Positions 5,933 to 35,996 of a stretch of DNA of 35,996 nt are shown one piece after another; the first letter of the stretch is position 1, and each line of letters starts with the position of its first letter. The position numbers and the translations under genes were made by a program. The DNA is taken from the NCBI GenBank assembly GCA_949516455.1, contig CATILC010000040.1, forward strand, positions 1-35,996, written 5' to 3'. The notes beneath the pieces are model-generated. The model did no database searches. It saw nothing but the letters and a program-made list of their open reading frames with translations, and was not told the origin of the DNA. This DNA is from Flavobacteriia bacterium. Its GTDB lineage: Bacteria; Bacteroidota; Bacteroidia; Flavobacteriales; Schleiferiaceae.

Positions 5933-8900
5933 TTAGAATTCGTTGATGAATCGCATGGCCTTTCCCTTGGATGCCTGCGATATGTTCAAAAACCCTTTCT
6001 TTTCCTCGATCCGGCGCTTTTTCTCGTCGAGTTTTTGGAATTCCGCCATCAGCTCCTTGTCGTTCGAATAGAATTGCAGGACGTTTCGCTTGTACCCAAA
6101 AAAGTAAAGAGTACCTGCACCATCTTCGAAGTAGAAATTGAGTTCATCCCCTCTTCTCTTTCGAATGAGTTGCACCGCTCCTCTGAGCTTTTTGTTGATC
6201 GGTTCCTTGAATATGCTCCCCAAGCCAATGTCGCCCACACTCAAAAATGAATTGGTGGCTGGATCCCATTCCATCTTGAGATCGCTGAAGGTGAATGTGT
6301 TCCTAAGCGCATCGGGCACTTCATCGGGTGCCCCATAGAGTTCGACCTCTTCATCGAAGTCATAGATGTCGTCGGCTGTCATCAGCTCATTCATGGCCAC
6401 ACGAAATGCCCGTCTGGAGAGGTCTACGGTTCCACGGCCATCGCCGGCAATGACCGCATCGGCTATGTCCTCAATGATGCCCTTGTCGAAGGGAAATTCA
6501 ATGCCCATCAGTGCATCGATCTCAATGCGATCGCTCTTCAGATCGTGCTGGACCCTTCCATAGGTGCCGATCTTGAGCAATCCCGTCTTTTCTCCCAGAC
6601 TCAAACTTCCCTGACCTTCTGTATAACAATCCTTGTTTTGAAGGATCAGATAATTCCCGGGATGGTCCTCGTCGTCGATCCGATCCTCACGAGCGATGAC
6701 GTAGGAGAACAGATCTTCGTCGTAAAGCAGCTGACCATCGGAACGGATGATCTCTATATCCGCCCGCTTGCTCGCCCGACTCAGGAAAGCCGAATAGGCC
6801 GAAGTCGAATCATTGGCGATGAAGATGCCGTTGAACAGCCGTTCAGCAGCTTTGTCCTCTCCAAACTTGGGCAGGTCGATCACAATGTTGTTCGGATCGA
6901 TGGGCGACCGAAAGGGGAACCAGGTGGTCGAGATATTGGCGCAGCTGCTTTGGATGTTCGTCTTGCCGTTAAAGGTCAGGTACTTCGCACTCGCCAGCAT
7001 TTCCACCTTTCCCTGGAACCCGAAGAATGGACTCATATAGAACTCGTCCTCCGGCTTCACATCGGCCGATCCCACCGTTTCGAGATCCCTGTTCACACCA
7101 AGCGTATGAAAATAAAGCGGCCAGGGGGTCTCGTCCTGATCGACATATTCCAGAATGCCATTTCCGCTGTAGCGATTCCTCGACTGGATCTTCAGAGAAC
7201 AATCATAGAGGTTGAAATGCCGGGTGAAACGATTCGCCACAAGAACAGACTTATCGAGCAGACGCATGTTGGCCGCCGTATCGATGGTCACACGGCCACT
7301 GTCTGGCTCAATGCGCGCATCGGCCACTTTGATCTGCTCCACTCCGTAGACTTCCAGCACCGAATTCAACAAGCTGAATTTGCTCGAAGCCGCGTCAAAA
7401 TGAAGGGAATCCTGAGCCTTATTGACCGATATCATGGGCGAGAGCTTTCCTTCCTCATGATTCCGCACATTGAAGGTTTTGGCCGCGATGTCCCAGTCTG
7501 CACGGTCCATGTAGGCGTCATACTGATTGACATCAAAGGCAAAGTGGTAGGATGAATCGAGCATTTCAAAACGACCGGCTTGCTTGTCGAAGTCTACTGA
7601 AGAACGTGCCTGCCAAGAGCTGAAAGCCCAGTCCGCCTCCGGGTATGGTCGGATCCTGAAGTCTGCGTGCTCAGCGTCAAAACGCCGGTTCTCAAATACG
7701 AAATCCTTTGAGTGCATTTGTGCATTGAGAAAATCTATCTGTCCTCTGCCCTCCAAGGCCGTGGGCGTGAGTGCCAGCGTTCCCGTACCGAGCATGTCGA
7801 CGTCATCGTACATCTCGAAGGGGCTTTCCCGGCTGCTTTGTTCCAAACGGTCTTCGCGGGGCAACCAACGCAAGAAGCTCCCCCTCCCGCGTACCGGTGG
7901 GTGGTATGCCGTCCCCTCCTCGGCCTTCAGATCGAATTCTTCGGTCGGACCCGTTGCTGAATCCGGGAAAAAGGTGATGGCCTTTCCACGGGAAAGAGAA
8001 GACAGATAGCGAATGGCGCCCATCCCCACCAAACCAGACTCATCCAGACTCAGACTATCGGTAAACTGACCCGCACCGTCATATGCAGACAGCCCTTCCG
8101 GAGGCGTGGCGATGCGAAAACCAAGGCTGTAGTCCCTCTGGACCTTCAGCGTCTGTTCCATTTCCGGAAAGATGCCTCCGGAGACGAATGTGCCGTCAAA
8201 GGAAAGCCCCTCCGCAGTCGTATTGTCCAAGCTGTCGATGGTGAACTGGTGGACCTCGACGAAAAAGGTTTCCCTGGGATATACGCGATCATAAATATCC
8301 CTTCGGTCGTAGTAGATATAATTCTTTTTGCCCGAGGTGAAGATCGGGTAGTCGTGGTAGACGCGCCTGCTGGATTTGTTGTTTGGTTTGTCTATGTACA
8401 GCTCACCATTGAAATCCTGAAGAGTGGTCCGGACATAGCGAAGAGGTCTTCGGCCCATGGCGTCCGGTGTAAAGGACTGCACCTTGAATTTCATGGAATC
8501 GATTTCGGTCATGCTGACCCTGAACTGATCGTAATTGAACAAGAATTCGTGGCCCCAATAGGTGAATCGGCCAGCTTGGATCACCCCGTCGAACTTGAAA
8601 TCAAATCCTTCATTCATTTCGATCTTACGTCCATAGGGGAACATGGCCACCTTTTGAGAATCCGAAACGGCGATCTGTCGGATCCCCTTGATCTCCAATT
8701 TGTGGTCGAGCAGACTCAGCCGTGCATTCTCTCCCTGTGCAGTTCTGCTCTGGAAGCGGATCACGTCGTAGTCTCTTTTTCCGCTGAAGTTCTTTAAGTA
8801 CTCAAAGGTCCGGGGGCGAACCGTGGCGCGCTGGCTGAGCGGATCGTAGTCCAGAAATCCGGCCACCATCATTTGCAAAAGGAAACGCTCGGCCTTGATC

Positions 8901-10312
8901 TTGGTCACCGGGAGAACGCGCTGTACTGTGGCCAAACCAAAATTGAGTGAATCAGCGAGCTGCGTCATTCGCTTCAGCTGAGCCAGTGGATGGACATTGC
9001 TCAAGCCCTGAAGGGCGCGCATCCGCTCGCCGCGGAAGTATTGATCCGACTCAAAGACCGAAGCACTCATCCCCTCAGATTGCAGATTGCCCATGCTGAT
9101 GACGTGCTTTTTCATGTTCCACTGGACCACATCCAGATACATAGCCATGTTGTGGTAGGAGTTGGCAAATGCCGTCTGTCCACTGCCCTTATCCGGACGC
9201 AGCAGGGTCAGGGTTTCTCTGGGGACGACGTACTGCACGGTAAGCCTTGGATGCGAGATGGAGTCGTCCTTGATATATATGGCCACCCGGGCATCCTCTG
9301 CGCGGATCACATCCCCCTTGAACTGGAACCGATCCGAACTCACGCGAACGAGCGGAACGCTGTCGTATTTGAAAAAGAGTTTGGAATCCTTAGACTCACT
9401 GGCGCTGCCGAACAATTTGTCCCCCAGCACATGAAATCCCCCCACGTAGTCGACATTGGGTACGATGTCCTTCAGTCTGATCTGGTTGCTGTAGGATTCG
9501 AATCGGGGAAAATCGGCCCGGTTGGCACTGAGCTGTTCCATGAAATGCCCAAGGGTCGGTTCCTGCAGGTAGATCTCACTGAACAGGGTCACACTGTCGG
9601 CTTGGAATCCTTCGTGGGCCAGATCGATAGTGGCCTTATTCAATTCGGCATAGAGCGTGTCTTCCCGAAAACCGGATCGGGTGAAATAAACCGTTCCTCC
9701 CTCTATTTGGAACTGGTTGCGCAAGGGATAAAAGATGCCCGATGTGCCCTCGATCAGTGTACTGTCCGTCCGAAAAAAGCCGATCAGATCAATGTCTGAG
9801 TAAAGGAACAGCGGTTCGGGTTCCATTCTGAATTCTCTGATCCCTCCTTCTGCCTTCCAACCGACATTGCGCATGTCGGAAACCAGACTATCGGTAAGGT
9901 TCAGCATGCAGGAATAGAGGTATTCCGATGTGATGCGTTTGGGGGACGAACCACTGAACTGCTTCAGGTGTACCAGCCAGCTGCTCAGCATCTCCTCTCC
10001 TTCCTGATCGTACAGAGCAAGTGAACTGGCCAGAAGCGAAACCCACGAACGATGATCCTTCACCCGCTTTCGCAACATGTGGTTGCAGCTGCTGATCAGG
10101 TCTTTTTGTTGTGTTTCACTCCATTCCTGAAGGAAGACGTCCCGAAACCGAAGGAATAAAGACTCTGAATCTCCATAGTCTTCGCTAAAACTCAGGAAGT
10201 AGTCGTTCAGGTCCGAAATGAAGCGGTCCGGTTCTTCATGAAACTTCTTCAGTTGTTGCCCGTGCAGTCCAACACTCAAAATGAAAGCAAAGAAGATCAG
10301 AATCTGTTTCAT
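5933..10312 (-). CDS. Very large (~1459 aa) exported protein of unknown function, beta-rich, with apparent internal repeats
   Basis: Start placed at MKQILIFFAFILSVGLHGQQ (signal peptide), giving an ATGA overlap with the prmA stop. The ORF-track start at 10438 lies inside prmA. Confidence 0.85.
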   Translation of the reverse strand: MKQILIFFAFILSVGLHGQQLKKFHEEPDRFISDLNDYFLSFSEDYGDSESLFLRFRDVFLQEWSETQQKDLISSCNHMLRKRVKDHRSWVSLLASSLALYDQEGEEMLSSWLVHLKQFSGSSPKRITSEYLYSCMLNLTDSLVSDMRNVGWKAEGGIREFRMEPEPLFLYSDIDLIGFFRTDSTLIEGTSGIFYPLRNQFQIEGGTVYFTRSGFREDTLYAELNKATIDLAHEGFQADSVTLFSEIYLQEPTLGHFMEQLSANRADFPRFESYSNQIRLKDIVPNVDYVGGFHVLGDKLFGSASESKDSKLFFKYDSVPLVRVSSDRFQFKGDVIRAEDARVAIYIKDDSISHPRLTVQYVVPRETLTLLRPDKGSGQTAFANSYHNMAMYLDVVQWNMKKHVISMGNLQSEGMSASVFESDQYFRGERMRALQGLSNVHPLAQLKRMTQLADSLNFGLATVQRVLPVTKIKAERFLLQMMVAGFLDYDPLSQRATVRPRTFEYLKNFSGKRDYDVIRFQSRTAQGENARLSLLDHKLEIKGIRQIAVSDSQKVAMFPYGRKIEMNEGFDFKFDGVIQAGRFTYWGHEFLFNYDQFRVSMTEIDSMKFKVQSFTPDAMGRRPLRYVRTTLQDFNGELYIDKPNNKSSRRVYHDYPIFTSGKKNYIYYDRRDIYDRVYPRETFFVEVHQFTIDSLDNTTAEGLSFDGTFVSGGIFPEMEQTLKVQRDYSLGFRIATPPEGLSAYDGAGQFTDSLSLDESGLVGMGAIRYLSSLSRGKAITFFPDSATGPTEEFDLKAEEGTAYHPPVRGRGSFLRWLPREDRLEQSSRESPFEMYDDVDMLGTGTLALTPTALEGRGQIDFLNAQMHSKDFVFENRRFDAEHADFRIRPYPEADWAFSSWQARSSVDFDKQAGRFEMLDSSYHFAFDVNQYDAYMDRADWDIAAKTFNVRNHEEGKLSPMISVNKAQDSLHFDAASSKFSLLNSVLEVYGVEQIKVADARIEPDSGRVTIDTAANMRLLDKSVLVANRFTRHFNLYDCSLKIQSRNRYSGNGILEYVDQDETPWPLYFHTLGVNRDLETVGSADVKPEDEFYMSPFFGFQGKVEMLASAKYLTFNGKTNIQSSCANISTTWFPFRSPIDPNNIVIDLPKFGEDKAAERLFNGIFIANDSTSAYSAFLSRASKRADIEIIRSDGQLLYDEDLFSYVIAREDRIDDEDHPGNYLILQNKDCYTEGQGSLSLGEKTGLLKIGTYGRVQHDLKSDRIEIDALMGIEFPFDKGIIEDIADAVIAGDGRGTVDLSRRAFRVAMNELMTADDIYDFDEEVELYGAPDEVPDALRNTFTFSDLKMEWDPATNSFLSVGDIGLGSIFKEPINKKLRGAVQLIRKRRGDELNFYFEDGAGTLYFFGYKRNVLQFYSNDKELMAEFQKLDEKKRRIEEKKGFLNISQASKGKAMRFINEF

Positions 10313-11142
10313 GCTCTTTGGAATTCTTGTGCGACCCATCCGTCCTGTTCTACGGAACGTCCGGCCTGCCATCCATATTTCGCGGCCTGCCTGCGGATAG
10401 GCTCTGCATCGTGGGCATAGAATCCACTGAGGATCCATCGCCCCCTTTCCGCGGTCATTTCATGGTAGATCGGGATGTGTTCAAGAAGAACGTTCCTATT
10501 GATGTTGGCCAGGATCAGATCGAAAGCCTTTTCCGATGCATCCAATGCTTCCGGACCACCGTGGACCACACGGCAGTGGCTGCAGCTGTTCCGAGCCATA
10601 TTCTCCTCCGTACTGGCACAGGCCCAGTCAAAATTGTCGGCAAGCACGACTTCCCGAGCCCCTTTCTTTTCGGCCAGGATGCCCAACACACCCGTTCCGC
10701 ATCCCATGTCCAGGACACGCTCCCCGCTGATCTCCATCTCCTCCATCAATCGGATGACCAAGGAAGTGGTGGCGTGATGGCCCGTGCCGAAGGCCATGGC
10801 TGGACGAACTTCCAATTCGAAGGAAAAGCGTTCAGACGGATCGTGGAAGGGTGCACGGATGCGGCAGTAACCTCCGATCTCCACAGCGGGATAATTCCTT
10901 TCCCACTCTTCGTTCCAATTGCGGTCTTCCAGGGGTTCGGTGCGGATCTCGCCTACTTTCAGACCCGACAGAACAGATCGTATCTGTTCGGAACCGGGAG
11001 CCGTATCCGGATCTTCCCAGTAAGCCAAAAGGGTGGACGACTGCTCCTCGAAATAAGAAAACCCAAGATTTTGGAGAAAGGCAGACGCGATCTCCACATC
11101 ACCGTCCTGAACCAGATCGATCTCAAAGGCGAGCCAGCTCAT
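10309..11142 (-). CDS. prmA: Ribosomal protein L11 methyltransferase
   Basis: FELEVRPAMAFGTGHHATTSLVIRLME, VLDMGCGTGVLGILAEKKGAREVVLADNF, DLILANINRNVLLEHIP. Confidence 0.95.
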   Translation of the reverse strand: MSWLAFEIDLVQDGDVEIASAFLQNLGFSYFEEQSSTLLAYWEDPDTAPGSEQIRSVLSGLKVGEIRTEPLEDRNWNEEWERNYPAVEIGGYCRIRAPFHDPSERFSFELEVRPAMAFGTGHHATTSLVIRLMEEMEISGERVLDMGCGTGVLGILAEKKGAREVVLADNFDWACASTEENMARNSCSHCRVVHGGPEALDASEKAFDLILANINRNVLLEHIPIYHEMTAERGRWILSGFYAHDAEPIRRQAAKYGWQAGRSVEQDGWVAQEFQRA

Positions 11143-28210: not shown

Positions 28211-28298
28211 GTGGCTTTTTTAATCGCAAGCAAAGTAATTGAAGTCTGACGAAAAAGCCCCTGCTCTTCCATTGCTACAATTTTGATATTTGCAACTC

Positions 28299-30455
28299 AT
28301 GCGCTTTCGGCATTTACATATCGTTTTCCTGCTTATCGGGATCGCAGGATCCCTGAGGGCGCAGCCTATCGAATTGTCCGATCTTTCGTCAGGCAATCCA
28401 CGGCTCATCGGGGATCGGGCAGAATACATTGCTGACCGCAGTCACCAATTGGACTGGGAGGATCTGTCTTCTGTAGAAATGAAGCCATCGGACCAAGCGG
28501 TGATCACCTTTTCCGAGGCCTCCACGACCTACTGGTTTCGATTCCGTCTGCACTCGAATCAATCTATAGATGGAAACTACGTACTGGACATTCGCAATCC
28601 ATTGCTCGATTCGGTAGATGTGTATCTCGTCCAGTCCGGGCAACTCATTCGCTCTTACCACACGGGTGACCGACATCCCTACAAGAGCAGGCCGCTCGAA
28701 TACAATTCGTTTGCCTTCCCGATCTTTTCTCTGCAGGAAGGAGAATTCGAGATCCTTGTTCGGATCCGATCGACCGATCAGTTGCTGATCCCCTTCTACT
28801 TGGGCGAATCCCATTGGGTGTCGGCCATCAAGAACAATCAGGAACTTATTTTCGGCATATACATCGGGCTCATGCTCGTCATGTATCTATACAACGGCTT
28901 CATTTGGATATCCACGAGGGACAATGCCTATCTCTACTATGTCTCCTATGTGGGCTGTCTAATGATGGCGCAAATGATCCTCGAGGGAACTGCTTTTCAC
29001 CGGTTGTTTCCCGAAAGTCCGGAAATACACAATTTCGGGGTGGTTCTCTTCAGTGCATTGACGGGGTTGGCGGCCATCAAATTCACCCGAAAATTCCTCA
29101 ATCTCAAGGTCAGAGCGCCACGGTTGAGCAATGGTCTGTACCTCTTTGAAGGCCTGTATGTACTGGCTGTAATATTCCGCCTATTTGGCTTGTATGCCCT
29201 GAGCTTTCGAATGCTGGATGTCGGTGGGCTTCTGTCGTCCCTGTATGTGCTCGGCCTCTCCATTGCGCTGGTCCGCAAAGGATTTTCTGAAGCCAAATTC
29301 TATTTGGTCGCCTGGATATTCTTCATCCTCGGTGTCCTGGTCTACGTCTTGAAGAATTTTGGCTTGCTGCCTTTCAATACGCTGACAAGCAGCGCCATTC
29401 AAATTGGTTCAGCGATCGAGATCGTACTGCTCTCTTTCGCACTGGCCAACAGGATCAACAGATTGAGAAGGGAAAGAGAACAAGCCCAAAGAGAGCGATT
29501 GGAGGTGACCCGGGAAAACGAGCGGCTGATCAAGGAACAAAATGTGGTGCTGGAGCAAAAGGTCGAAGAGCGAACCAACGAATTGGAGGAGACGCTCAGC
29601 GACCTGAAGGAGACACAGGCCCAGCTGGTGGACGCAGAGAAAATGGCCTCCCTCGGACAATTGACAGCTGGAATCGCCCACGAGATCAACAATCCCATCA
29701 ATTTTGTTTCCTCCAACATTTCGCCTTTGAAGAGGGACATCAAAGACATGTTGGACCTGATCGAGAATTACGAGCGACTTGAAGATGCCGATCTCAAAAA
29801 GGAACAGAGGCATGCGATCCTCGAGGAGATCAAGGACTTCAAGGAAGAGATCGACCTGAGTTTCCTCAAAACAGAAATAGACGCTCTCCTGGACGGCATT
29901 GATGAGGGCGCAACTCGAACGGCAGGGATCGTCAGCAGTTTAAAGACCTTTTCGCGTTTGGATGAAGAGGATTTCAAAGACACGAATATCGAAGAGGGGA
30001 TCGACTCGACTTTGGCCATCCTGAACTCGAAGATCAGCGGTCAGATCGAACTGGTGAAGGAATACGCGGGCTTGCCTCTGGTCTATTGCAATTCTGGGAA
30101 AATGAATCAAGTATTCATGAATCTATTGAGCAATGCCATTTTTGCGATCAACGAGAACCGCTCGCAAGGGCATATCGACCATGGTTTGCTTACTGTGCGT
30201 ACGAGGGAGTCCAAGAGCAGCTACATGATCGAGATCGAGGACAACGGCATAGGCATGAGCGACGAAGTCAAACAAAAGATCTTTGAGCCCTTCTTTACAA
30301 CCAAAGAAGTAGGAGAAGGCACCGGGCTCGGACTGTCGATCGTCTACACCATTCTGCAGGAGCATCAGGCCAAAATGACCGTTGTTTCCGAAGAAAAGAA
30401 GGGAAGCCGGTTCAAGTTGAGTTTGCCGAAAGATCTAGAATCCAGGACCTCATGA
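28299..30455 (+). CDS. 7TMR-DISM sensor histidine kinase
   Basis: Signal peptide; 7TMR-DISMED2-like ectodomain ([22 protein letters not shown]...[10 protein letters not shown]); multiple TM helices; [56 protein letters not shown]. Confidence 0.92.
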
Positions 30456-31546
30456 TCGTCGATAAGAACATACGTGTGCTTTACCTTGACGATGAGCCAT
30501 CAAACCTCAATTCGTTTCGCGCCGCATTCAGAAGGCAATTCACCGTATATGTGACGGACAACCCCGACGATGCCCTGGAATTGGTAAGAGAAAAAAGACC
30601 GCAGTTGGTCTTCTCCGATCAACGGATGCCCGAGGTGAATGGAACAGATTTTCTGCGCACCGTTCACGAGCTGGACAGCAACACCATCAGGGTGCTGATC
30701 ACAGCGTATACAGATGCAGCAGAGATCATCAACGCGATCAACCGGGGACGCATTTACCGATTCATTTCCAAGCCGTGGAATGAAGAAGAATTGCGGCAGA
30801 CCATCATCAACGGCTACGAAATACATTCTACACGCAGAAAGCTGGAAGAGAAAGTCGAAGAACTTGAAAAGACAAATGAGGAGCTCAATAAGTTCATCTA
30901 CAGTGCTTCCCACGATCTCAGGGCACCGCTCATGTCGATCCTCGGAGTGGTCAAACTCTCCGAGCTCGATCCACTGGACGAGGGCGCCCGCAATCTATTT
31001 CAGTTGATCGAGAACAGTGTGATGCGTATGGACGCCTTCATTTCAAGCATCATTGAATACTATCAAAATACGCGAAGCGAAAAAGAACTCAAGGAGATCG
31101 ACTTTCGAGGACTGGTCGATGAGATCCTCGGGAATTTGAAATTTTTCGAGGGCGCTCGTGAGATGCAATACGACCTGCGCATCGATACGTGCCCAGGCTT
31201 TGTAACAGACCTCTTCCGCTTGCGCATTGTCTTGAGCAATCTGATATCCAATGCCATGAAATTCAATCGCCTCGATCCAAAAGAGCACAGGGTGGGCATT
31301 GAGATCATTTGCAACGAATCAGAGGTAAAACTCAAGGTGGAGGACAATGGACTCGGCATTGCGGAAGATCAAAGAGAGCTCGTGTTCAATATTTTCCATC
31401 GAGCGGATGCCAAAAAGAGCGGTTCAGGTATCGGCCTTTACATAGTGAAGGAAGCACTCGAAAAGTTGAATGGCAGCATCGAACTCGAATCCATTCCCAA
31501 CCAAGGCAGCACTTTTTCCTGCACCATCCCCAACCTCAAAAAATGA
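30452..31546 (+). CDS. Response-regulator/histidine-kinase hybrid (N-terminal REC, C-terminal HisKA-HATPase)
   Basis: VLYLDDEPSN...LVFSDQRMPEVNGTDFL...LITAYTD...FISKPW; FIYSASHDLRAPLMSILG; VEDNGLGIAEDQRELVFNIFHRADAKKSGSGIGLYIVK. ATGA overlap with the upstream kinase. Confidence 0.93.
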   Translation: MIVDKNIRVLYLDDEPSNLNSFRAAFRRQFTVYVTDNPDDALELVREKRPQLVFSDQRMPEVNGTDFLRTVHELDSNTIRVLITAYTDAAEIINAINRGRIYRFISKPWNEEELRQTIINGYEIHSTRRKLEEKVEELEKTNEELNKFIYSASHDLRAPLMSILGVVKLSELDPLDEGARNLFQLIENSVMRMDAFISSIIEYYQNTRSEKELKEIDFRGLVDEILGNLKFFEGAREMQYDLRIDTCPGFVTDLFRLRIVLSNLISNAMKFNRLDPKEHRVGIEIICNESEVKLKVEDNGLGIAEDQRELVFNIFHRADAKKSGSGIGLYIVKEALEKLNGSIELESIPNQGSTFSCTIPNLKK

Positions 31547-31944
31547 ACAAGGTGATTAAGCGCATTTGGATGATCGACGACAGCTCGACCGATATGTATC
31601 TGCAGGAGGAGCTGATGCGTCGAAGAAACATCGGTACATCATTTTCTCATTTTATCTCAGCCGAGAAAGTGATCGAACTTCTGAATATCCTGGCAGAAAG
31701 GGAAGAACAAGAACTGCCGGACCTCATCCTCCTGGACATACACATGCCCAGGGTCGATGGTTTCGGTTTCCTCGAGGCATATTCAAAAGCTGTTGATTCC
31801 TTCAAAAAACACCCCGTCCTCGTGGTCATTTCTTCTACCATCATGAGCAGTGACATTCAAAAGATGAAAAACCACCCGCTGGTGAGTGGCGTATTGAAAA
31901 AACCGCTGGAGGTGGATCAACTCAGAGCTATTCTTGAAGCCTAA
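31543..31944 (+). CDS. Single-domain response regulator
   Basis: IWMIDDSSTDMYLQEEL, DLILLDIHMPRVDGFGFLEAY, VVISSTIMSSD, GVLKKPLEVDQL. ATGA overlap; the track ORF from 31309 runs upstream. Confidence 0.92.
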   Translation: MNKVIKRIWMIDDSSTDMYLQEELMRRRNIGTSFSHFISAEKVIELLNILAEREEQELPDLILLDIHMPRVDGFGFLEAYSKAVDSFKKHPVLVVISSTIMSSDIQKMKNHPLVSGVLKKPLEVDQLRAILEA

Positions 31945-31958
31945 GGGTTTCCAGCCGG

Positions 31959-33539
31959 TCAGTCTTCGGACTTGAGTCGGAATTGCAGCTTATCGTACTT
32001 CTCTATGGCCATCTGGAGACTGAAAGACGAATCTGCCAAATACACCAATCGTTCAAATTTGTCACGGGCGATGAAACGCTGTTTGAGTTTTTTGAATTCC
32101 TCAAGCTGACGCTCATCCTCAGAAGTCAGCCAGCATGCTTTGTGTGCCGGATAGGGCTCATAGCTGCATCGAGCACCGTACTCGTTTTCCAGTCGATATT
32201 GAATGACCTCGTATTGCAACGCCCCCACCGTGCCAATGATCTTCCTTCCATTGGACTCAAGGATGAATAGCTGGGCAACCCCCTCGTCCATCAGCTGATC
32301 GATACCCTTGGCCAACTGCTTGGATTTCAGCGGATCCTCATTGTTGATGAAGCGAAAATGTTCGGGGCTGAAACTTGGTATTCCTTTGAAGTTCAAAGAT
32401 TCTCCGCTGCTCAGACCGTCACCGATCCTGAAATTGCCTGTGTCGTGGAGCCCGATGATATCCCCAGGATAGGCCCGATCCATAATGGCCTTGCGGGAGG
32501 CCATAAAAGTGGTCGGACTGGAGAACTTGAGGTCTTTACCCAGGCGTACGTGCTTATAGGGTTTGTTTCTTTCGAACACCCCTGACACAACTTTTACAAA
32601 AGCCAGGCGGTCCCTGTGTTTGGGGTCCATATTCGCATGGATCTTGAAAACGAAACCAGAGAAGCCTTTTTCATTGGGGTGAACGATCCGTTCTTCTGCC
32701 ATTTTCGGCTGGGGATGGGGGGCGATCCGAACGAAGCCTTCCAAGAGATCTTGCACGCCAAAATTATTCAAGGCACTTCCGAAGAAAACAGGGGATTGTT
32801 TGCCTTGCTGGTATGCCTCCACATCAAATGATGGATATACACCCTGGATCAATTCCGCTTCTTCTTTGAGCTGTTCAAATGCTGGCTGCCCCAGAAAGTC
32901 CGCAAAGCGGATATCTTTGAGTCCATTCAATTCCACCTGCTCCCCTACCTTCTGCTTGAGCTGCTCGGTAAAGAGCAACAACCTGTCGTCCTGGAGATTA
33001 TAAACGCCCTGAAAATCCTGACCCATCCCAATGGGCCAACTCATCGGCGTCACATTCAGACCGAGTTTCTGCTCCACTTCATCGAGCAGGTCGAAGGCGT
33101 CTCTGCCCTCCCGATCGAGTTTATTGATGAAAATGATCAGCGGTATGTTGCGCATCCGGCTCACTTCCACCAATTTTTCGGTCTGGGCTTCCACTCCCTT
33201 GGCCACATCGATCACAACAATCGCAGAATCGACAGCAGTCAGCGTTCGGTAGGTGTCTTCTGCAAAATCCTGGTGACCCGGTGTATCGAGGATATTGATC
33301 TGTCGGCCTTGGTATTCAAAGGCCATAACCGATGTAGCCACAGAAATACCTCTTTGCTTTTCGATCTCCATGAAATCGGAGGTGGCGGTTCTCTTGACCT
33401 TATTTGATTTGACCGCACCCGCTTCTTGGATGGCTCCGCCAAAAAGAAGAAGTTTTTCTGTTAAAGTGGTCTTCCCCGCATCTGGATGAGAGATGATTCC
33501 AAAGGTCCTTCTGCGCTTGATTTCTTCTTCGGGCGACAT
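31959..33539 (-). CDS. prfC: Peptide chain release factor 3
   Basis: RRTFGIISHPDAGKTTLTEKLLLFGGAIQEAGAVK, ATSDFMEIEKQRGISVATSVMAFEY, NILDTPGHQDFAEDTYRTL, IIFINKLDREGRD. Confidence 0.97.
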   Translation of the reverse strand: MSPEEEIKRRRTFGIISHPDAGKTTLTEKLLLFGGAIQEAGAVKSNKVKRTATSDFMEIEKQRGISVATSVMAFEYQGRQINILDTPGHQDFAEDTYRTLTAVDSAIVVIDVAKGVEAQTEKLVEVSRMRNIPLIIFINKLDREGRDAFDLLDEVEQKLGLNVTPMSWPIGMGQDFQGVYNLQDDRLLLFTEQLKQKVGEQVELNGLKDIRFADFLGQPAFEQLKEEAELIQGVYPSFDVEAYQQGKQSPVFFGSALNNFGVQDLLEGFVRIAPHPQPKMAEERIVHPNEKGFSGFVFKIHANMDPKHRDRLAFVKVVSGVFERNKPYKHVRLGKDLKFSSPTTFMASRKAIMDRAYPGDIIGLHDTGNFRIGDGLSSGESLNFKGIPSFSPEHFRFINNEDPLKSKQLAKGIDQLMDEGVAQLFILESNGRKIIGTVGALQYEVIQYRLENEYGARCSYEPYPAHKACWLTSEDERQLEEFKKLKQRFIARDKFERLVYLADSSFSLQMAIEKYDKLQFRLKSED

Positions 33540-33640: not shown

Positions 33641-34555
33641 GTGGAAGTTCAATACAGCATTAGCGACCTGGAGCGCATCAGCGGCGTGAAAGCACATACC
33701 ATTCGCGTATGGGAAAGTCGCTACGGACTGATCATTCCGCAGCGTACTGAAACCAATATTCGTTTCTATTCAGACGGCGACCTCAAGAAGATCATGAATG
33801 TGGCTTTCCTTGTGAATACTGGATTGCGCATCAGCAAAGTTGCTGGTATGACGGACAAGGAGCAGCGGGCGTTGGTTCTCGATAAGTCAAACGGAGGTCA
33901 CGACCACCAGGGCACTTTGACGGCCCTTAAAGTTTCCATGATCGATTACGACCAAGACACCTTTGAACGCATCCTCAACCGTTGCCTGTTGAATATGGGC
34001 GCAGAGGAGGCCTTCAATTCGGTTTTGGGTGATTTCATTCGGCATCTGGGAATCTTGTGGCAAACGGGCGCGATCAACGTGGCCCACGAGCACTTTGTGA
34101 CAGGCATCATCAAACAGAAGCTCTTCTCGCTGATCGATCAGCTTACCGTCGCCCCATCGGCCCACTCCAAAAGGCACTTGCTCTTTTTGCCCGCTGGCGA
34201 ATTGCATGAGCTTGGATTGCTCTACATTCATTTCCTCCTGAGAAAGAACGGTCAGTCCAGTCTGCTTCTGGGACAGGACGTGCCCATCGAATTCGTCAAG
34301 GAGGCGGCCGATAAATTCGAGCCCGAAGTCATTGTAAGCATATTCACGACCCACCCTGAAGAGGAGAACGTCGAAAATTACCTCCACGAACTCGGTTCTA
34401 CATTTCCCGAAAAGAAAAAGCAGTTCTTTTTGGCCGGTTATCCCCTGCGCAACTTCCGGGGGCCACTCAACGACAAGCGCGTGAATCTATTCCGTACCAT
34501 GGAAGATCTGCGCTCCTTCGTGGTGAACACCTACGCTGTAAAGCAGTCTACATAA
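33641..34555 (+). CDS. CarH/LitR-like MerR-family regulator with a B12-binding domain (GTG start)
   Basis: MerR HTH (YSISDLERISGVKAHTIRVWESRYGLIIPQRTETNIRFYSDGDLKKI); W-x9-EH (WQTGAINVAHEH); cobalamin-type ExHxxG (GELHELG) followed by LLRKNGQSSLLLGQDVP. Confidence 0.9.
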   Translation: MEVQYSISDLERISGVKAHTIRVWESRYGLIIPQRTETNIRFYSDGDLKKIMNVAFLVNTGLRISKVAGMTDKEQRALVLDKSNGGHDHQGTLTALKVSMIDYDQDTFERILNRCLLNMGAEEAFNSVLGDFIRHLGILWQTGAINVAHEHFVTGIIKQKLFSLIDQLTVAPSAHSKRHLLFLPAGELHELGLLYIHFLLRKNGQSSLLLGQDVPIEFVKEAADKFEPEVIVSIFTTHPEEENVENYLHELGSTFPEKKKQFFLAGYPLRNFRGPLNDKRVNLFRTMEDLRSFVVNTYAVKQST

Positions 34556-34580
34556 GGCTTCCAGCTTCCTTAGCGCCTTT

Positions 34581-34612
34581 TTGTTTAATTCTTTGTGTTA
34601 AATATTAAACAA
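34581..34612 (+). promoter_or_regulatory. Inverted repeat 1 upstream of the ECF sigma gene (candidate operator)
   Basis: TTGTTTAAT (34581-34589) and ATTAAACAA (34604-34612): perfect 9-bp inverted repeat, 14-nt spacer. Confidence 0.65.
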
Positions 34613-34633
34613 AACCTTGGCTCCCTGCCTTTC

Positions 34634-34666
34634 TTGTTTAACTTCGTCCCTGTAAAGATTAAACAA
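34634..34666 (+). promoter_or_regulatory. Inverted repeat 2 upstream of the ECF sigma gene (candidate operator)
   Basis: TTGTTTAAc (34634-34642) and aTTAAACAA (34658-34666): same half-site, 8/8 core match, ending 6 nt before the sigma ATG. Confidence 0.65.
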
Positions 34667-34672
34667 ACGGCT

Positions 34673-35179
34673 ATGTCTACCATCGAATTCAACCGCTTGA
34701 TCGTCTCTCACCAAGAGTTTCTCAACCAACTGGCTATGAAACTGACCAAGAGTGTAGACGATGCAGAAGACCTCCTGCAGGATACGCTTTTCAAGGCTTT
34801 AAAGAATAAAGACAAGTATCAGGAGGGTACCAACCTGAAAGGCTGGCTTTACACGATCATGAAGAACACCTTCATCAATAACTACCGAAAGAAGAAAGTG
34901 CAGAACACCTTCATTGATGAAACAGACAACAAGTATTTCATCAACAGCAGAGAAGCCGAAAAGGACGCACGTACCGACTCAAGGGTGGATCGCGATTACC
35001 TCATGCGTCAGATCGACTCGGTGGATAAGCACTACGTGGACACTTTCATGATGCACTACAACGGGTACAAGTACGAAGAGATCGCTGAGATACTTGATAT
35101 TCCGCTTGGCACCGTGAAAAGTCGCATTTTCCTCGCTCGTCGTAAGATGATGGAGAAACTCATGGACTACCGAATCTGA
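34673..35179 (+). CDS. ECF-type RNA polymerase sigma factor
   Basis: MSTIEFNRLIVSHQEFLNQLAMKLTKSVDDAEDLLQDTLFKALKNKDKY...NLKGWLYTIMKNTFINNYRK...YKYEEIAEILDIPLGTVKSRIFLARRKM. Track start 34595 lies inside inverted repeat 1. Confidence 0.94.
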   Translation: MSTIEFNRLIVSHQEFLNQLAMKLTKSVDDAEDLLQDTLFKALKNKDKYQEGTNLKGWLYTIMKNTFINNYRKKKVQNTFIDETDNKYFINSREAEKDARTDSRVDRDYLMRQIDSVDKHYVDTFMMHYNGYKYEEIAEILDIPLGTVKSRIFLARRKMMEKLMDYRI

Positions 35180-35190
35180 GCCGTCCTTTC

Positions 35191-35996
35191 ATGCCAAACC
35201 TCCCCCACGCATGTGTCATAGGCGCAGGATTTGCAGGCCTTTCTGCAGCTTCGCATCTTTCCAAAAAAGGCTTCCGAGTCACCCTGGTCGAGAAGAACGA
35301 TCAGGCCGGCGGCCGAGCGCGTCGCTTCGAGTCTGAAGGATTCACCTTCGACATGGGCCCCTCTTGGTATTGGATGCCCGATGTTTTCGATCATTTTTTC
35401 AACGCACTGGATTCGGAAACCCAGGCGCATTACGAATTAAAAAGGCTCGACCCATCTTATCGCATCTTTTTTGAAGGATCCGAAATAATGGATGTTCCTG
35501 CCTCCATGGATGAACTCTATGCCCTTTTTGAGCAGTATGAAAAAGGGAGCTCGAGGGCACTGAAGAAATTCCTCAAAGAAAGCGAATACAAGTACGATGT
35601 CGGGATCAACGACCTGGTGTACAAACCAAGCAGGTCTCTTCTGGAATTTGCTGATTCACGCGTACTCAAAGGGCTGTTCAAAATGGATCTGTTCTCATCC
35701 ATGAGCAGCTATATACGCAAACACTTCACCGACTCAAGGCTGATCCGACTGCTCGAGTTTCCTGTTCTTTTTTTGGGAGCCACAGCGAAAAAAACACCAG
35801 CTCTTTACAGTTTGATGAACTACGCGGATCTCTGTCTGGGCACTTGGTATCCCATGGGCGGAATGCACAAGATCGTAGAGGGAATGGTTCGTGTTGCAGA
35901 GGAAAAAGGAGTGGAACTTCGGCTCGATGAAGAGGTGACTGGATTTTCTTTCAAAGAGGACGGCACCATCGGCTCCATTCGTACTACAAAAGGAGA
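35191..35996 (+). CDS. crtI: Phytoene desaturase (CrtI family), 3' truncated by window end; absent from the ORF track
   Basis: Manual translation: MPNLPHACVIGAGFAGLSAASHLSKKGFRVTLVEKNDQAGGRARRFESEGFTFDMGPSWYWMPDVFDHFFNAL..., FAD GxGxxG motif, GGRARRFESEGFTFDMGPSWYW, TPALYSLMNYADLCLGTWYPMGGMHKIVEGM. Confidence 0.93.
   Translation, partial: MPNLPHACVIGAGFAGLSAASHLSKKGFRVTLVEKNDQAGGRARRFESEGFTFDMGPSWYWMPDVFDHFFNALDSETQAHYELKRLDPSYRIFFEGSEIMDVPASMDELYALFEQYEKGSSRALKKFLKESEYKYDVGINDLVYKPSRSLLEFADSRVLKGLFKMDLFSSMSSYIRKHFTDSRLIRLLEFPVLFLGATAKKTPALYSLMNYADLCLGTWYPMGGMHKIVEGMVRVAEEKGVELRLDEEVTGFSFKEDGTIGSIRTTKG

Follow-up and report, generated by a model that had tools for sequence, protein, structure and literature searches.

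A gene for a MerR-type regulator with a cobalamin-binding domain, followed by genes for an ECF sigma factor and the phytoene desaturase CrtI, raises the question of which genes such a regulator governs in the Bacteroidota, and whether it reaches them directly or by way of the sigma factor. The three genes lie at the end of the stretch of DNA analysed here (the window; 35,996 nucleotides), which constitutes contig C40 of a Flavobacteriia draft genome of 1.97 Mb in 276 contigs. An initial interpretation made from the letters of the window (the sequence-only reading) had proposed a carotenoid locus controlled by B12 and light, in which the regulator may act through the ECF sigma factor and thereby exert two tiers of control. 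The present analysis points to an operon that probably serves photoprotection, is induced by light and is held off by a CarH/LitR-type repressor, with the ECF sigma factor as a possible second tier, and with the same regulator acting directly on proteorhodopsin-blh and on the gene of a fasciclin lipoprotein.

Gene content of the locus and the contig join

Open reading frames and Pfam matches place the three genes on one strand in the order that had been read from the sequence, i.e., the regulator (33641-34555), the ECF sigma factor (34673-35179) and crtI (from 35191), and the observation is thereby confirmed. The features of the window are as follows:

31959..33539, minus strand: prfC (RF3), a divergent conserved neighbour outside the system (RF3_C, E 1.9e-43)
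33641..34555, plus strand: CarH/LitR-type MerR regulator with a cobalamin-binding domain, 304 aa (Pfam, PDB, AlphaFold, signature residues)
34581..34612, unstranded: predicted operator O2, TTGTTTAA-N16-TTAAACAA, preceding the -33 element (0 mismatches)
34617..34619, plus strand: predicted RpoD-type promoter, -33 TTG, N19 to the -7 element (consensus match)
34634..34666, unstranded: predicted operator O1, TTGTTTAA-N17-TTAAACAA, overlapping the -7 element (0 mismatches)
34639..34646, plus strand: -7 element TAACTTCG (consensus TAnnTTTG), inside O1 (sequence)
34673..35179, plus strand: ECF sigma factor, 168 aa, no adjoining anti-sigma gene (Sigma70_r2/r4; orthologues)
35191..35996, plus strand: crtI (phytoene desaturase family), incomplete at the end of the contig (Pfam Amino_oxidase/NAD_binding_8)

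The crtI gene is truncated at 35996, with its N-terminal half present in the window. At its end, C40 overlaps contig C200, read in reverse, by exactly 119 bp, and the join yields a CrtI of 495 aa, whose C-terminal half on C200 matches CrtID (E 1.4e-115) and crtI_fam (E 2.6e-56). Another join in the same assembly, that of C11 and C239, also involves a 119-bp overlap, the equal length being what would be expected from the assembly graph. Beyond the joined crtI, and on the same strand as this gene, follow eight further genes, most of which abut or overlap (coordinates on L003):

12410-11571, minus strand: crtB
11567-11037, minus strand: idi
11052-10642, minus strand: PTPS (queD-like)
10682-9960, minus strand: folE
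9963-9262, minus strand: SDR
9265-8636, minus strand: flavin-reductase-like
8667-7339, minus strand: photolyase
7342-6821, minus strand: peroxiredoxin (bcp)

This gene order is kept on single contigs in about 20 related genomes, which confirms the C40/C200 join and indicates that the arrangement is not a product of chance. The synteny comparison and the downstream crt genes to which the sequence-only reading had looked forward are thereby provided, since crtB and idi are contiguous with crtI across the join and form with it a carotenoid cluster in one apparent operon; the photolyase and pterin genes had escaped that reading. The pterin genes probably supply the folate/pterin cofactors of the photolyase.

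The divergent arrangement of the RF3 and merR genes is found in most family members, and an Rfam scan of the window and C200 returned no cobalamin riboswitch and no other RNA. Elsewhere in the window, a row of genes for a 7TMR-DISM histidine kinase, a response-regulator/histidine-kinase hybrid and a response regulator lies just upstream of prfC (28290-31944), while the minus strand at 5933-10438 encodes a 1501-aa protein with a likely signal peptide, presumably the giant exported protein mentioned in the sequence-only reading.

The regulator as a candidate adenosylcobalamin photoreceptor

The regulator carries Pfam domains MerR_1 (E 3.9e-14) and B12-binding_2 (E 4.1e-11), and a comparison with the PDB identifies CarH (3whp/5c8d, E ~1e-18). 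Its AlphaFold model (pLDDT 88.7) returns full-length CarH (5c8d/5c8e, E 1e-16) as top fold matches, and the modelled architecture, consisting of an N-terminal MerR helix-turn-helix, a helical bundle and a cobalamin-binding domain, is that of CarH and class I LitR. The light-response signature of cobalamin photoreceptors has been described as GxxW, EH, GxxH and GxxxP (PMC11796333), and all of it is present in the window regulator as GILW, EH, GELH and GQDVP. These motifs cover the equivalents of W131, E141, H142 and H177 of Thermus thermophilus CarH (TtCarH), the reference positions of which agree with the PDB chain sequence, and W140, E150, H151 and H189 in the numbering of the window protein are invariant among 26 homologues. 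The assignment to the CarH type made in the sequence-only reading is thus borne out, the domains and the adenosylcobalamin (AdoCbl) photoreceptor signature being intact. Against the NCBIfam CarH equivalog NF052513 the protein scores 95 bits, below the cut-off of 400, and on such sequence comparisons it is a CarH homologue and not the same equivalog. A cob(I)alamin adenosyltransferase (PF01923, E 5e-61) is encoded in the same genome, and in 37 of the 40 genomes searched, so that imported cobalamin can be converted into AdoCbl.

His132 of TtCarH, which forms the bis-His light state of that protein, is matched by Gln in the window regulator and in most family members. An H132A mutant of TtCarH is unable to monomerise (PMC11796333), and the release step must consequently differ here. 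As the Gln breaks the bis-His mechanism of Thermus CarH (PMC11796333), and as no experiment was found that shows the Bacteroidota protein to sense light, it could be argued that the switch depends on B12 but not on light, or that the repressor senses cobalamin supply or redox state, with the operon answering cobalamin status. Such a switch is considered improbable, given that photoactive cobalamin proteins have been reported with Arg (CtMerR), Gln (SasPcob) or Tyr at position 132 (PMC11796333), meaning that His132 does not define the wider family, and given that the predicted targets are related to light (photolyase, carotenoid, rhodopsin) and not to B12. A light-responsive, AdoCbl-dependent repressor is therefore the preferred reading.

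Two variants of the regulator were encountered among the related genomes. In the regulator at L054:4407-5294 (G037), Asn replaces the cobalt-ligating H177 while the ECF gene, crt genes and operator are retained, and this protein is possibly a B12-blind, i.e., B12-independent, CarA-like form. Short homologues of ~200-240 aa are found in the small-genome family f11 (G143:C2, G175:C3, G136:C3, G187:C39, G159:C18, G179:C3 and G125:C15); these match positions 3-183 only, without the cobalamin Rossmann half, and resemble class II LitR.

Predicted operator, promoter and targets

The gap between the regulator and sigma factor genes contains the inverted repeat TTGTTTAA-N16/17-TTAAACAA twice, around a predicted Bacteroidota RpoD-type promoter, with the inverted half-sites about 24 bp apart from centre to centre. 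Across the 1.97 Mb of the assembly, O1 and O2 alone match the core exactly, and the reversed-pattern control gave 0. The repeat recurs in the regulator-ECF gaps of relatives, often in two copies. Furthermore, among 80 named loci sampled from the Flavobacteriales, Cytophagales, Chitinophagales and Bacteroidales, it was found with at most two mismatches, and with a spacing of 16 or 17 only, in 58 of 60 regulator-ECF gaps (0.72 in dinucleotide shuffles), where this count, like all operator-site and co-occurrence counts given here, takes related genomes as they stand and ignores kinship. Using the flavobacterial RpoD promoter consensus (PMC3587595) for comparison, a TTG-N17..23-TAnnTT[N]G pattern was observed in 18 of 22 homologous gaps, the form in the window being TTG-N19-TAnnTTTG. 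The merR promoter of the window itself has no good operator, unlike the merR promoters of relatives. Successive operators in the regulator-ECF gaps of L175-L254 are mostly 21, 44 or 63 bp apart, compared to 53-56 bp in the family of the window, which suggests arrays that differ in length and are in phase with the DNA helix.

The -7 element TAACTTTG overlaps a half-site, and conservation of the repeat is thus partly that of a promoter, which would suit a model in which some other regulator, encoded elsewhere, binds the TTGTTTAA repeats without any part being played by the MerR protein. This model is very unlikely to be correct, since the element adjoins the regulator gene in almost every lineage and its second half-site is conserved at a fixed spacing that no promoter explains, while its bases change along with the recognition helix of the regulator. 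For example, clades in which the K-A-H-T of this helix is replaced lack the TTGTTTAA form, and the repeat present at the merR, SDR and rhodopsin genes of these clades is TTGTATAA-N16-TTATACAA. This tracking of the recognition helix by the half-site represents the best evidence, at the level of sequence, for binding of the repeat by the regulator itself.

Sites with at most two mismatches in the same genome comprise the two before the ECF gene, one before the fasciclin lipoprotein gene on C165 (1 mismatch) and one before proteorhodopsin-blh (2 mismatches), which ends 46 bp before the ATG and became visible after the C11/C239 join; at three mismatches, operator matches in this genome were no commoner than in the control. 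The proteorhodopsin gene, a target beyond the reach of the sequence-only reading, which was confined to the window, adjoins blh, encoding a beta-carotene 15,15'-dioxygenase. In the family of the window, the operator is present in 17 of 51 proteorhodopsin upstream regions (0.23 expected) and missing from the other two thirds, whereas a second family of the order has it in 14 of 14 (0.08 expected); three other families have it in 0 of 13, with a variant site in seven. The regulator was detected in 66 of 70 rhodopsin-bearing genomes versus 82 of 228 without rhodopsin, although these genomes are related and the comparison carries no independent p-value. Operator sites in relatives precede genes for proteorhodopsin, fasciclin, SDR, lycopene cyclase, TspO, DUF4397 and heme-oxygenase proteins, and those before a pyrB-like gene in L101 and a peptidase gene in L103 resemble chance matches or are unexplained. 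The upstream regions of crtY, which served as a negative control, contain the operator in 0 of 30 cases; an operator before crtY was accordingly rejected as a general rule, a single relative (L105) having a site before its lycopene cyclase gene.

With regard to individual predicted targets, fasciclin-domain lipoproteins are found under the operator in four genomes (L167:308-1393, L092, L100 and L106), and sites in L096 and L099 stand directly before genes for secreted DUF4397 proteins that carry Por sorting tails. A 659-aa frame at L297:1489-3468, divergent from proteorhodopsin, fuses a lycopene cyclase to a blh-like C-terminal half, and similar frames of 650-700 aa recur in the same family. 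The genome of the window (G000) has no match to the lycopene cyclase family PF05834 though blh and proteorhodopsin are present, and its cyclase is either missing from the draft or of another type.

The ECF sigma factor possesses regions 2 and 4 (Sigma70_r2, E 1.4e-15; r4_2, E 4e-12) and no region 3, and is 58-84% identical to 21 syntenic orthologues, nearly all of which begin at the position of ATG 34673. A GTG at 34595 was rejected as its start, as it falls in the operator region and relatives start at 34673. The gene sits under the predicted operators O1 and O2, and no conserved ECF promoter motif was found in the ECF-to-crtI or ECF-to-folE/PTPS gaps. The crt genes are predicted to be under direct control, to which the ECF sigma factor may add a tier without replacing it, because one promoter with its operators appears to serve both the ECF and the crt genes, and because the operator precedes crtI where the ECF gene is lacking: in four relatives from the order crtI comes immediately after the regulator gene and is preceded by the full element or the left TTGTTTAA half-site. 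Control purely via the ECF sigma factor was rejected on the latter ground. The two-tier proposal of the sequence-only reading thus holds in part, in that the ECF gene lies under a predicted operator and may add a tier, while the crt genes are predicted to be controlled directly as well.

The shared promoter with its two operators and the operator before crtI in ECF-less relatives, together with the fact that proteorhodopsin has an operator of its own and needs no ECF sigma factor, would also agree with a single tier, in which both the operon and proteorhodopsin are repressed by the regulator itself and the cotranscribed ECF sigma factor only amplifies its own operon or answers another stress, adding no light tier of its own. 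This is regarded as possible, yet the less likely arrangement, since the ECF gene adjoins the regulator in 60 of the 80 loci sampled from the phylum, among them Bacteroidales loci in which no crt gene follows and where it must act elsewhere, which argues for action in trans. Two tiers are therefore retained in the proposed mechanism, which is modelled on CarH. In the dark, AdoCbl-loaded regulator would occupy the two operators around the one RpoD-type promoter and keep the ECF sigma, crtI, crtB, idi, pterin and photolyase genes off as a single operon. Green or blue light would break the Co-C bond, releasing the repressor and turning the operon on, and newly made ECF sigma factor, with no anti-sigma factor encoded nearby, would activate further genes as the second tier. 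The same regulator would control proteorhodopsin-blh and the fasciclin lipoprotein gene directly through the same operator, such that carotenoid/retinal supply, rhodopsin and DNA repair would be switched on together.

Wider meaning and comparison with known systems

Light induction of proteorhodopsin occurs in some marine flavobacteria. Its regulation in these bacteria has been called unresolved (PMC3587595), and RpoS1 of Vibrio was the sole named regulator of a proteorhodopsin gene (PMC3380642); the current analysis supplies a candidate sensor, an exact predicted binding site and predicted targets. On balance, we favour the broader view that a B12 photoreceptor repressor is a direct proteorhodopsin switch in a large part of the Flavobacteriales, coordinated with carotenoid/retinal supply and photolyase via one operator type, and that in most other Bacteroidota it controls a dedicated ECF sigma factor, free of an anti-sigma factor, on which a light response of the whole phylum is centred. 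If this is true, the supply of cobalamin, in its role of sensory cofactor, would determine whether these abundant marine bacteria can grow on light, and a B12-ECF light circuit would be common to the Bacteroidota, testable in genera that can be cultured, for example Algoriphagus, Pontibacter or Hymenobacter. Lineages without the ECF gene, those with changed half-sites and those with rhodopsin but without the site offer natural controls. A search that covered few subscription papers, and whose outcome is not proof of absence, found no publication that describes this operator in Bacteroidota, the module of regulator and ECF gene or the proteorhodopsin link.

The window regulator shares with Thermus thermophilus CarH and class I LitR the MerR domain, four-helix bundle, cobalamin-binding fold and W-x9-EH and ExHxxG sites, as well as the linkage to carotenoid genes. 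It differs from Thermus CarH in having about 24% identity to it in the fold alignment, Gln for His132 and another operator, and in its control, predicted from sequence, of an ECF gene, pterin/photolyase genes and proteorhodopsin. Another B12-type MerR regulator accompanied by an ECF sigma factor is LitR of Streptomyces coelicolor, to which the LitS gene is linked. LitS directs light-dependent crt transcription (Takano et al. 2005, as cited in PMC3380642), and a regulator-ECF-crt cascade is thus not new in kind. The present system belongs to another phylum, combines the ECF and crt genes in what appears to be a single operon preceded by two operators, and has rhodopsin as a predicted target. 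Light-inducible genes under class II LitR of Pseudomonas (PplR1/PmlR2) include photolyase, folE and folM-type genes (PMC9758184), so that photolyase and folE are common to both sets; however, class II LitR is without the cobalamin-binding half that the window regulator has, PmlR2 works with a LOV partner, and the class II operator T(G/A)TACA-N12-TGTA(C/T)A differs in geometry from the window repeat.

Within the Bacteroidota, the crt clusters of Echinicola marina have the same gene neighbourhood as the window, merR and rpoE being annotated beside them, and the passage concerned presents this as annotation, without operator, mechanism or regulon (PMC8683446). RpoS1 regulates the proteorhodopsin gene of Vibrio campbellii in a light response (PMC3380642); it comes from another phylum and is unrelated to the window regulator, the shared feature being light-responsive control of proteorhodopsin. 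In comparison with these systems, the phylum-wide regulator-ECF module, its operator and its link to proteorhodopsin appear to be new.
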